Shown here in pieces: positions 31,380-58,444 of a DNA stretch of 64,000 nt. Source of the DNA: Aeromicrobium yanjiei (GTDB lineage Bacteria > Actinomycetota > Actinomycetes > Propionibacteriales > Nocardioidaceae); NCBI RefSeq assembly GCF_009649075.1, contig NZ_CP045737.1:1178001-1242000 (forward strand), given 5' to 3'. The translations under genes were made by a program, and so were the position numbers. The notes beneath the pieces were generated by a model, which worked only from the letters and a program-made list of their open reading frames with translations, did no database searches and was not told the origin of the DNA. Each line of letters opens with the position of its first letter. Positions within the stretch are counted from its first letter, which is position 1.

Positions 31380-31973
31380 GTGGATCGATTCGTCCGAGAG
31401 CTCCTGTCCCTGCCGTCGCTCGACGCCGAGCAGGAACGGGCCCTGGCCGTCCGTGCCGGTGAGGGCGATCGCGATGCCCGGGCAGACCTGATCACCGCAG
31501 GCCTGCGGCTCGTGGCTCTGCGGGCCTGTCTGCTGGGTCTGACGGGGGAGGACATGCGGGACGCCGTGCAAGCCGGCGCGGTCGGGCTGATCCGCGCGGT
31601 CGACCGATTCGACCCCGATCGCGGTGCGCGCCTCGCGACGTACGCCTGGCACTGGATCGGCGCCGAGATGTCGGTCGCCCGCCCACGCGACGTCCCGCTG
31701 GGCGAGGTCGATCCGCCGTACGCCGAGCCCGATGTGCTCGGCGACTCCCTGCTGGACGGTCTGTCCGACGACGCGGTGGCCGTGCTGAGCCTGCGGTTCG
31801 GAATCGGCCCCGGCGGCGGCTCGCCGATGCCGAGAATCGCCGTGGCACAGCGCCTGGGGGTGAGTGTGACGAGGATCCGGACGATCGAGGGTGAGGCGAT
31901 GCGACAACTCCGTGAGGGGCTTGCTAAAGTTGTCGACCGTGCTCCTCTTCAACGAGAAGCCGATCCCCCATAG
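31380..31973 (+). CDS. Small sigma-70-family sigma factor, 3' end overlaps tRNA-Asn
   Basis: A 197-residue sigma factor. Region 2 is clear: QAGAVGLIRAVDRFDPDRGA then LATYAWHWIGAEM, the core-binding and -10 recognition helices of group 3/4 factors. A linker (PRDVPLGEVDPPYAEPD) and region 4 (SDDAVAVLSLRFGIG, then AVAQRLGVSVTRIRTIEGEA) follow. GTG 31380 is preceded by CAGGGTGG. The TAG stop at 31971-31973 lies inside the 5' end of tRNA-Asn on the same strand, so the last ten bases are shared. Which genes it controls is unknown. Confidence 0.85.
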   Translation: MDRFVRELLSLPSLDAEQERALAVRAGEGDRDARADLITAGLRLVALRACLLGLTGEDMRDAVQAGAVGLIRAVDRFDPDRGARLATYAWHWIGAEMSVARPRDVPLGEVDPPYAEPDVLGDSLLDGLSDDAVAVLSLRFGIGPGGGSPMPRIAVAQRLGVSVTRIRTIEGEAMRQLREGLAKVVDRAPLQREADPP

Positions 31974-44590: not shown

Positions 44591-46345
44591 TCAGGGACGC
44601 GGGACGTTGCGCAGATTGGAGCGGGCCATCTGCAGCGCCTCGCCCACGCCGCCGTTGAGCACGACCTTGCTCAGCGCCATCGCGAACCCGCGCACCTGCT
44701 CGCCGGTGACCGTGGGCGGGATCGACAGCGCCATCGGGTCGGTGACGAGCTGGACGAGCGCGGGGCCGTCCACCGCGAAGGCGGTCTCGAGCGCCTCTCG
44801 GATCGCGCTGGGGTCCTCCACCCGCTGGGAGTGGATGCCGGCAGCGGCAGCGATCGCGGTGTAGTCGACCGGCGGGACGTCGACGCCGAAGTCGGGCAGG
44901 CCGTCGACCAGCATCTCGGCCTTGACCATGCCCAGCGTCGAGTTGTCGAACAGGACGATCTTGACCGGGAGCTTGTACATCGCGACCGTCAGCAGCTCGG
45001 ACAGCATCATCGACAGGCCGCCGTCGCCGGAGATGGACACGACCTGCCGTCCCGGGTGGGACATCTGCGCGCCGACCGCGTGAGGGAGCGCATTGGCCAT
45101 CGAGCCGTGGAGCATCGAGGCGATGAAGCGGCGCTGTCCCGTCGGGTTGATGTAGCGCGCGGTCCACACGTTGCACATGCCGGTGTCGGTCGTGAAGATC
45201 GCGTCGTCCGCCGCGACCTCGTCGAGGATCGACGCGGCGTACTCGGGGTGGATGGGCACGAGGGTGTCGGCCGACCGGGTGTACGCGCCGACGACGCGGT
45301 GCATCATCTTGTCGTGCTTGCCGAGCCACCGCTCGAGGAAGCTGCGGTCGTCCTTGCGCTCCACGAGCGGCGCGAGCGCCCGCAGGGTCGCCAGCACGTC
45401 GCCGTGCACCGGCACGTCGACACGGGTACGGCGTCCGATGACGCCGGCGTTGACGTCCACCTGTGCGGTGGTCACGTCGCCCGGCAGGAACTGCGAGTAC
45501 GGGAAGTCGGTGCCGAGCATCACCAGCAGGTCGGCGTCGTGCATCCCTGCGTGGGCGGCGCCGTAGCCGAGGAGCCCGGTCATGCCGACGTCGTACGGGT
45601 TGTCGTACTGGATGAACTCCTTGCCGCGCAGCGAGTGGCCGATCGGGGCACCGATCTGCTCGGCCAGGGCGATGACCTCGTCGTGCGCGCCACGCACCCC
45701 GTACCCGGCGAAGATCGCGACCCGCTCGGCCCGGTTGATCGCCTCGGCGAGGCGTTCGACAGAGGCCTGGTCGGGGACGATCGTGGGCGGGTCGGGGAGC
45801 AGCAGCGGGACGATGTCGCCGACTGCGGGCAGCTCGGCGATGTCGCCGGGCAGGGTCACGACGGAGACGCCGTGGCCGGCGGTCGCTGAGCGGATCGCGG
45901 CGCGGAACATCCGCGGTGCCTGCTCGGCGGTCAGGACCAGCTCGTTGAACGTCGAGCACTCGCCGAAGATCCGGTCGGGGTGGGTCTCCTGGAAGTATCC
46001 CGAGCCGATCTCGTTGCTCGGGATGTGCGAGGCGATCGCCAGGACGGGGGCGCCGGAACGGTGCGCGTCGTAGAGACCGTTGATGAGGTGCAGGTTGCCC
46101 GGGCCGCAGGACCCCGCGCAGACGGCGAGCTCGCCGGTCAGCTGGGCGTCCGCCGAGGCAGCGAACGCTGCGGCCTCCTCGTGCCGGACGTGGATCCAGT
46201 CGATCCCGCCCTTGGCCGATCCGCCGGTGCGACGGACCTCGTCGACGACGGGGTTGAGGCTGTCGCCCACGATCCCGTAGATCCGGCGGACACCTGCCTC
46301 GACGAGATACTCGACCAGCTGTCCGGCGACGGTGCTCGAGCTCAT
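44591..46345 (-). CDS. poxB: Pyruvate dehydrogenase (quinone)/pyruvate oxidase type, TPP- and FAD-dependent
   Basis: Decarboxylates pyruvate to acetate and CO2, passing electrons to quinone at the membrane. The 584-residue protein has the N-terminal TPP domain (GIVGDSLNPVVDEVR, HVRHEEAAAFAAS with the catalytic Glu), a central FAD/Rossmann-like domain (VAIFAGYGVRGAHDEVIALA) and the TPP motif ISGDGGLSMMLSELLT...FDNSTLGM. Resemblance to PoxB is close. It is divergent from the guanidine-responsive SMR gene and offers a bypass of AceE. Confidence 0.92.
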   Translation of the reverse strand: MSSSTVAGQLVEYLVEAGVRRIYGIVGDSLNPVVDEVRRTGGSAKGGIDWIHVRHEEAAAFAASADAQLTGELAVCAGSCGPGNLHLINGLYDAHRSGAPVLAIASHIPSNEIGSGYFQETHPDRIFGECSTFNELVLTAEQAPRMFRAAIRSATAGHGVSVVTLPGDIAELPAVGDIVPLLLPDPPTIVPDQASVERLAEAINRAERVAIFAGYGVRGAHDEVIALAEQIGAPIGHSLRGKEFIQYDNPYDVGMTGLLGYGAAHAGMHDADLLVMLGTDFPYSQFLPGDVTTAQVDVNAGVIGRRTRVDVPVHGDVLATLRALAPLVERKDDRSFLERWLGKHDKMMHRVVGAYTRSADTLVPIHPEYAASILDEVAADDAIFTTDTGMCNVWTARYINPTGQRRFIASMLHGSMANALPHAVGAQMSHPGRQVVSISGDGGLSMMLSELLTVAMYKLPVKIVLFDNSTLGMVKAEMLVDGLPDFGVDVPPVDYTAIAAAAGIHSQRVEDPSAIREALETAFAVDGPALVQLVTDPMALSIPPTVTGEQVRGFAMALSKVVLNGGVGEALQMARSNLRNVPRP

Positions 46346-46481
46346 CGGTGTGAATCCGTGGTCATGTCGTCTCCTCGTTCACGGGCCGGGACGCCCCGTC
46401 TCAGTATGTGCCGGAGGCCAAGGATCTGGCATCAGCGCGCTCAGCGCAGGGGTGAGAGACTGGGGGAGCCACCACAGGCAC

Positions 46482-46523
46482 CCGGACGAGGTGCGCCGTA
46501 CCCGGCCAGCGACAAGACGGCGC
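46482..46523 (+). promoter_or_regulatory. Guanidine-III riboswitch (ykkC-III)
   Basis: The 42-nt segment starts CCGGACGAGGTGCGCCGTAC and ends GACAAGACGGCGC. It is almost identical to the guanidine-III aptamer known from Thermobifida fusca. The diagnostic pseudoknot is present: GCGCCGT (46493-46499) pairs with ACGGCGC (46517-46523). The 5' CCGG pairs with CCGG at 46502-46505. The ribosome-binding site GGAGG (46526-46530) follows directly, so ligand binding should control translation start of the SMR gene. Recognised by memory of the motif and its pairing, not by a covariance search. Confidence 0.93.
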
Positions 46524-46538
46524 GTGGAGGTTTTCGTC

Positions 46539-46853
46539 ATGGCATGGGCCGTTCTGATCGTCTCGGGTCTTCTCGAAGGTGTGTGGGCCACGGCCCTCGG
46601 CCGATCCGACGGATTGACTCGGGTCACCCCGACGATTGTTTTCGGTGTCGGGCTGGTGCTGAGCATGATCGGCCTCGCCGTCGCGATGCGTGACCTGCCG
46701 ACCGGCACGGCGTACGCGGTGTGGGTCGGGATCGGTGCGACGGTCACGGTCTGCGTCGCGATGGCCACCGGGCAGGAGACCGTGAGCCTGGTCAAGATCC
46801 TGCTCCTCGCCGGGATCGTGGCGTGCGTCGTGGGGCTCAAGCTCGCGCACTGA
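46539..46853 (+). CDS. gdx: SMR-family guanidinium exporter (Gdx/SugE type)
   Basis: A 104-residue, four-helix proton-coupled exporter that works as an antiparallel dimer. The first helix MAWAVLIVSGLLEGVWATAL carries the essential Glu13. The Gdx/SugE signature follows (TRVTPTIVFGVGLVLSMIGL, then LPTGTAYAVWVGIGA). The guanidine-III riboswitch just upstream makes guanidinium the expected substrate, rather than quaternary ammonium drugs. It starts 8 bases after GGAGG. Confidence 0.93.
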   Translation: MAWAVLIVSGLLEGVWATALGRSDGLTRVTPTIVFGVGLVLSMIGLAVAMRDLPTGTAYAVWVGIGATVTVCVAMATGQETVSLVKILLLAGIVACVVGLKLAH

Positions 46854-58017: not shown

Positions 58018-58439
58018 GAATGAGTCGGCCGGGCGGCCGCGGCACCGGGTCGTACGACCACGGTGTCGAGGAAAGTCCGGACTCCGCAGAGCGACGGTGG
58101 TGGCTAACGGCCACCCACGGCGACGTGCGGGACAGTGCCACAGAGAACAGACCGCCAGCGGCCTGCGCCTTCGGGCGCAGGTGCGGGTAAGGGTGAAACG
58201 GTGAGGTAAGAGCTCACCAGCGCTCCGGGTGACCGGGGCGGCTAGGTAAACCCCACCGGGAGCAAGACCAAGAGGACTCCTCCGCGTGCGGAGGGGTCTG
58301 CGCTGACGGGCTGCTCGTCCGATGTCAGCGGGTAGGTTGCACGAGGCGTCCAGCAATGGGCGTCCCAGATGGATGGTCGCCCGGGCCGGTGGAGTGATCC
58401 GCTGGTCTGACAGGATCCGGCTTACAGGCCGGCTCATTC
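58018..58439 (+). ncRNA. rnpB: RNase P RNA, bacterial class A
   Basis: Catalytic RNA that matures the 5' ends of tRNAs. The 422-nt region shows the class A hallmarks in order: GAGGAAAGTCCGGACTCC (CR I), CAGAGAACAGACCGCC, GGGTAAGGGTGAAACGGTGAG (CR II/III), GGTAAACCCC, AGATGGATGGTCGCC and the terminal ACAGGATCCGGCTTACAGGC (CR V). The ends pair (GAATGAG with CTCATTC), closing helix P1. A small open frame begins 5 bases after it. Confidence 0.98.
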
Positions 58440-58444
58440 GCCCC

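Follow-up and report, generated by a model that had tools for sequence, protein, structure and literature searches.

A guanidine-III riboswitch very probably acts in cis to turn on a gene for a guanidinium exporter in Aeromicrobium yanjiei. Both lie in the window, by which we mean the whole stretch of 64,000 nucleotides that was analysed. The riboswitch is real and conserved, an intact and ordinary copy of a known RNA class, and we hold the assignment to guanidine-III and the ON sense at this locus with high confidence. The parts of the locus, in positions of the window, are as follows.

46453..46461, plus strand: extended −10-like promoter element TGNNANNNT (here TGAGAGACT), proposed from a pattern count across leaders
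46463..46481, plus strand: P0, upstream hairpin region, included in the RF01763 model
46482..46523, plus strand: guanidine-III aptamer, 42 nt, located by Rfam, core scan, alignment and covariation
46482-46485 with 46502-46505, plus strand: P1
46493-46499 with 46517-46523, plus strand: P2, the pseudoknot helix
46487, 46488 and 46498, plus strand: equivalents of the ligand-contact bases C6, G7 and G17, in the numbering of PMC5696562
46526..46530, plus strand: Shine-Dalgarno (SD) sequence GGAGG, two bases past P2 and eight before the ATG
46539..46853, plus strand: Gdx-type SMR exporter gene, predicted, 104 aa, from ATG (46539-46541) to TGA

When the 64-kb window was scanned against 4227 Rfam families, RF01763 (Guanidine-III) matched at 46463-46526 on the plus strand; the match scored 64.9 bits, where the gathering score is 36, had an E-value of 3.9e-11 and covered the full model, positions 1-67 of 67. 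The sequence-only reading of this locus had called the element guanidine-III and named an Rfam covariance search as a check; that search and the P2 covariation described below both support the call. Its interval, 46482-46541, was right in letters and coordinates from P1 to the start codon but omitted P0, and because the Rfam model takes in this upstream hairpin, the element begins 19 bases earlier. The 7-bp GCGCCGT/ACGGCGC pseudoknot that it described is present, 46493-46499 and 46517-46523 being perfectly complementary, and its placing of GGAGG two bases past the aptamer is likewise correct, with GT between P2 and GGAGG. All three ligand-contact bases, C6, G7 and G17, are found in the aptamer. 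Allowing up to 3 mismatches, a scan for the 24-nt core CCGGACGAGGTGCGCCGTACCCGG found a single occurrence in the window and none in 100 dinucleotide shuffles. A search of the genome returned this one guanidine-III match; genome searches for guanidine-I and guanidine-II found none, and the Rfam scan found no guanidine-IV within the window. The same scan placed a class A RNase P RNA at 58021-58440 on the plus strand (268.6 bits) and three tRNA genes at 31964, 33722 and 42266.

The aptamer is an H-type pseudoknot of P1 and P2 with compensatory changes in relatives, and the covariation of P2 is strong. Relatives were collected as 82 leaders: 30 belong to the genus, a pattern modeled on the window's aptamer retrieved 16 from named genomes, and family and phylum draws supplied 36 as their best hits; the 16 pattern-scan stretches, Thermobifida fusca included, share letters by choice, having been selected as near-identical aptamers. 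Eight of 90 loci (L077-L079, L083, L084, L086-L088) stand outside all counts of 82, their variant core having escaped the core pattern; this pattern required GGACGA, and invariance there is therefore partly by construction. In an alignment of the 52 distinct aptamers among the 82 leaders, 94.6% of the 572 pair cells of P1 and P2 held standard pairs, a share that reached at most 49.8% when the partner was slid by 1-3 columns. Double-changed cells numbered 29, against 5.3 in shuffles and with 0 of 500 shuffles reaching 29, and they were seen in 6 of the 11 pairs. The two outermost P2 pairs were unpaired in 10 and 17 of the 52 relatives, which speaks against a uniform helix. Variant aptamers from the same genus (L027-L029, at about 1520-1570) read GCGCAAAGACGG where most have GCGACAAGACGG, and in compensation a C-G pair of P1 has become U-A; eight phylum loci (part of L077-L088) likewise read CAAAGACG.

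The riboswitch was found in 32 of the 49 genomes of the genus, in 110 of 197 genomes of a family draw and in 51 of 396 genomes of a phylum draw (42 above the cut-off), the family and phylum searches having run under stricter filters that lost some weak matches. A second element in genome G040 (28.5 bits, below the cut-off) apparently lies within coding sequence and was treated as a chance match.

The protein encoded directly after the riboswitch is supported as a Gdx-type SMR protein by its sequence. The 104-aa product matched Pfam PF00893 (Multi_Drug_Res) with 67.1 bits, and its closest solved relative is the guanidinium-type protein Gdx-Clo (6wk5, E 5.5e-18), the EmrE entries scoring 2.9e-5 or weaker. 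Gdx-Clo and the product align without gaps over residues 1-102 and have E13, W16, S42, Y59 and W62 in common; their overall similarity is moderate, and transport by the product is predicted from sequence. The SugE equivalog NF008512 of NCBIfam was the best of 20 models, yet it scored 86.4 bits against a cut-off of 126, and we therefore do not file the product as SugE in the NCBIfam sense. W16 is reported as conserved in Gdx proteins and replaced by Gly or Ala in the Qac subtype (PMC7695847). The complete five-residue set was present in the best SMR match of all 75 riboswitch loci that have one, and among 15 weaker SMR homologues of the genus lying away from riboswitch hits, nine had A16, five another residue and one W16.

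Guanidinium as the predicted substrate is favored by W16 and by the linkage across the genus. The sequence-only reading had named the same substrate but held that the family alone would not settle it; that part needs amending, since W16 is present as in the riboswitch-linked SMR set and the protein itself, beyond the riboswitch, therefore points to guanidinium. It is very unlikely that the exporter is instead a broad multidrug or quaternary ammonium pump: the Pfam and NCBIfam names would suggest one, but the product has W16 where 9 of 15 genus homologues away from the riboswitch have A16, and riboswitch and Gdx homologue are linked in the genus. A likely substrate can thus be given to an SMR exporter which databases would label a multidrug protein.

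This linkage is close. A close Gdx homologue is present in each of the 32 genus genomes that carry the riboswitch (SMR E 4.7e-31 or better) and in 2 of the 17 that gave no riboswitch hit (G015 and G020), several of these 17 genomes being incomplete; of the other 15, nine had no SMR hit at 0.001 and six only hits of 4.2e-10 or weaker. Among the 82 leaders, 75 are followed by an SMR gene on the same strand; in L072, the best match lies 353 nt away. Three of the seven leaders lacking such a gene were searched and are followed by a CBU_0592-family membrane protein (L049), an arginase family protein (L063) and Sm_multidrug_ex (L068); the remaining four (L050, L074, L075 and L085) were compared by eye only. 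In L049 and L050, a small membrane protein gene stands first after the riboswitch in place of the SMR gene and might have a guanidine-linked function; a Pfam search with the L049 gene gave no hit. The neighbors of ykkC-III named at its discovery include emrE and speB (PMC2864571).

Several gene arrangements were recorded alongside. In G020 (L112, 1-1026), two Gdx-type genes in tandem with no riboswitch hit lie beside a divergent TetR-type frame, an arrangement in which protein-based control may stand in place of RNA control. The Gdx-type gene of G015 (L113, 3-715), likewise lacking a riboswitch hit, begins right on the stop codon of the preceding gene, which gave a weak, sub-threshold luciferase-like match. 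In G044 (L114, 120-775), a tandem pair of SMR genes lies downstream of the riboswitch, and the first of the two contains an in-frame TAG. Searches of the A. yanjiei genome found no second SMR gene and no arginase family member, and no urea carboxylase above the cut-off, with partial carboxylase-type matches only. The divergent neighbor at 44594-46345 on the minus strand is a TPP enzyme of the pyruvate dehydrogenase (quinone) type (NF005114, 997.6 bits).

The leader itself is very short. We found the extended −10 pattern in 59 of 82 leaders within the 33 nt examined, against a mean of 3.1 and a maximum of 9 in 200 shuffles; a strict sigma-70 consensus scan gave no promoter at the A. yanjiei leader. 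Because of the usual distance of the pattern to P1, we infer that the mRNA starts near 46467, close to the base of P0. The 22 nt before P1 folded better than shuffles (mean z −1.55 over 82 loci, z < −1 in 56), with a weak folding signal in the window (z −0.30), and the upstream fold ended no more than 2 nt from P1 in 72 of the 82 leaders. An SD-like word lay 0-4 nt past P2 in 71 leaders and further on in six, and was not found in five. A search for intrinsic terminators returned a single terminator-like hairpin, at 46619-46632 within the coding region (shuffles gave an expectation of 0.1).

The sequence-only reading had drawn control of translation initiation from the closeness of the SD. The spacing is compatible with such control, but closeness alone is no proof; what we found on predicted pairing did not strengthen the claim, and the class is also reported to act on mRNA stability (PMC12186494). 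The pairing tests covered 76, 74, 74 and 67 loci, with relatedness between loci uncorrected. No shared anti-SD emerged when upstream, aptamer and early coding segments were paired with the SD (mean z −0.08 to 0.35, 76 loci), a test in which the P2 end was misplaced in T. fusca-type leaders, the SD distances above coming from a separate count. Pairing between the spacer and the early coding region was avoided (z +0.84 on average over 74 loci). When the aptamer was masked in ViennaRNA, predicted SD accessibility fell from 0.55 to 0.40 (mean of 74 leaders) and from 0.35 to 0.20 in the window; this drop speaks against simple opening of the SD on aptamer folding, within a model that holds neither pseudoknot nor ligand, and we set that candidate aside. 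Pairing of the coding region with the first 11 nt of the aptamer was also considered and dropped, the signal (mean z −0.25, sem 0.13) being too small to build on.

Control mainly through mRNA stability, with the closeness of the SD incidental, is possible but doubtful. A pseudoknot locked by guanidine near the 5′ end would block 5′-end scanning by RNase E; protection of mRNA against RNase E by guanidine-III is described in a 2025 review citing Richards and Belasco 2021 (PMC12186494), and the extended −10 pattern puts the aptamer near the 5′ end of the mRNA. However, the recurrence of SD-like words just past P2 suggests a tie to initiation, and a P0 hairpin at the 5′ terminus might impede the entry of RNase E whether or not the ligand is bound.

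A lineage-specific switch, in which the ligand-free P0 region at 46464-46475 pairs with GTGGAGGTTTTC (46524-46535) and covers the SD until the folded pseudoknot holds the ends far apart and breaks the helix, is improbable. The predicted duplex in the window is strong (−16.2 kcal/mol), the SD core reaches z −2.5 to −3.4 in the window and L006, and both show the helix in their masked fold. Yet it still forms in the masked fold that stands in for the bound state, and its breakage by the pseudoknot is our own steric argument. The association of CCAC with GTGG is weak (7/21 versus 6/61, p = 0.018, uncorrected for relatedness), and across 67 loci a leader's own P0 and spacer paired no better than permuted partners (P = 0.75). 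We therefore rejected the helix as a family feature; it could be a local OFF state in the window and L006, as modeled.

For the actinobacterial element as a whole, we tentatively suggest that it is nearly the entire 5′ leader, with promoter, 5′-terminal P0, aptamer and SD in about 90 bases, and that the pseudoknot between the mRNA 5′ end and the ribosome site may itself be the expression platform, acting jointly on mRNA decay and initiation. So short a leader makes a clean system in which to ask how guanidine-III RNAs regulate their genes, a mode of control described as less well established in the T. fusca paper (PMC5696562).

Returning to the cis-acting ON switch, we picture its course as follows. 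The mRNA probably begins at P0, so that the leader would consist almost entirely of P0, the aptamer with its pseudoknot, and the SD. Rising guanidinium would bind at C6, G7 and G17 and stabilize the pseudoknot with its triplex, as near identity to the T. fusca RNA suggests; such binding and stabilization were shown by others in T. fusca (PMC5696562). The folded leader would then yield more Gdx protein, the adjacent SD being kept free, the mRNA protected, or both, and the exporter, judging from its subtype and linkage, would remove guanidinium. Since the riboswitch stands directly before a guanidinium-type exporter gene, the exporter most likely rises as guanidine builds up, and the ON sense is stated for the guanidine-III class (PMC5696562). 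The T. fusca authors proposed that the ligand stabilizes the fold, does away with competing structures and uncovers the ribosome binding site (PMC5696562). The in-line probing that they cite found both helices, P1 and P2, already formed in ligand-free RNA and changes confined to the third strand; a large rearrangement is thus harder to accommodate.

The obstacle to RNase E of Richards and Belasco 2021 belongs to the same riboswitch class as the element in the window, for which an effect on decay would follow by analogy. Their guanidine-III example is reportedly from Legionella pneumophila.

The 42-nt aptamer is identical in 9 of the 82 leaders, the window counted, and named carriers include Arthrobacter cryoconiti, three further Arthrobacter, a Specibacter and a Renibacterium MAG. 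In a MAG named Chloroflexia (L044, 6343-6384), the P2 of the aptamer is identical to that in the window, as a result of transfer or mis-binning. The closest comparison is with the T. fusca guanidine-III (ykkC-III) RNA (PDB 5NWQ, RF01763), whose P1, P2, third strand and ligand-contact bases are the same in the window. The near identity claimed by the sequence-only reading is correct: the T. fusca aptamer (L036:7612-7652) has 41 nt and the window's 42, and a single substitution, at position 25, and a single base inserted before G29 set the latter apart. C6, G7 and G17 are the ligand contacts in the T. fusca structure (PMC5696562). The two leaders differ beyond the aptamer, where the ribosome binding site of T. 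fusca lies 16 nt away (PMC5696562) and that of A. yanjiei two bases.
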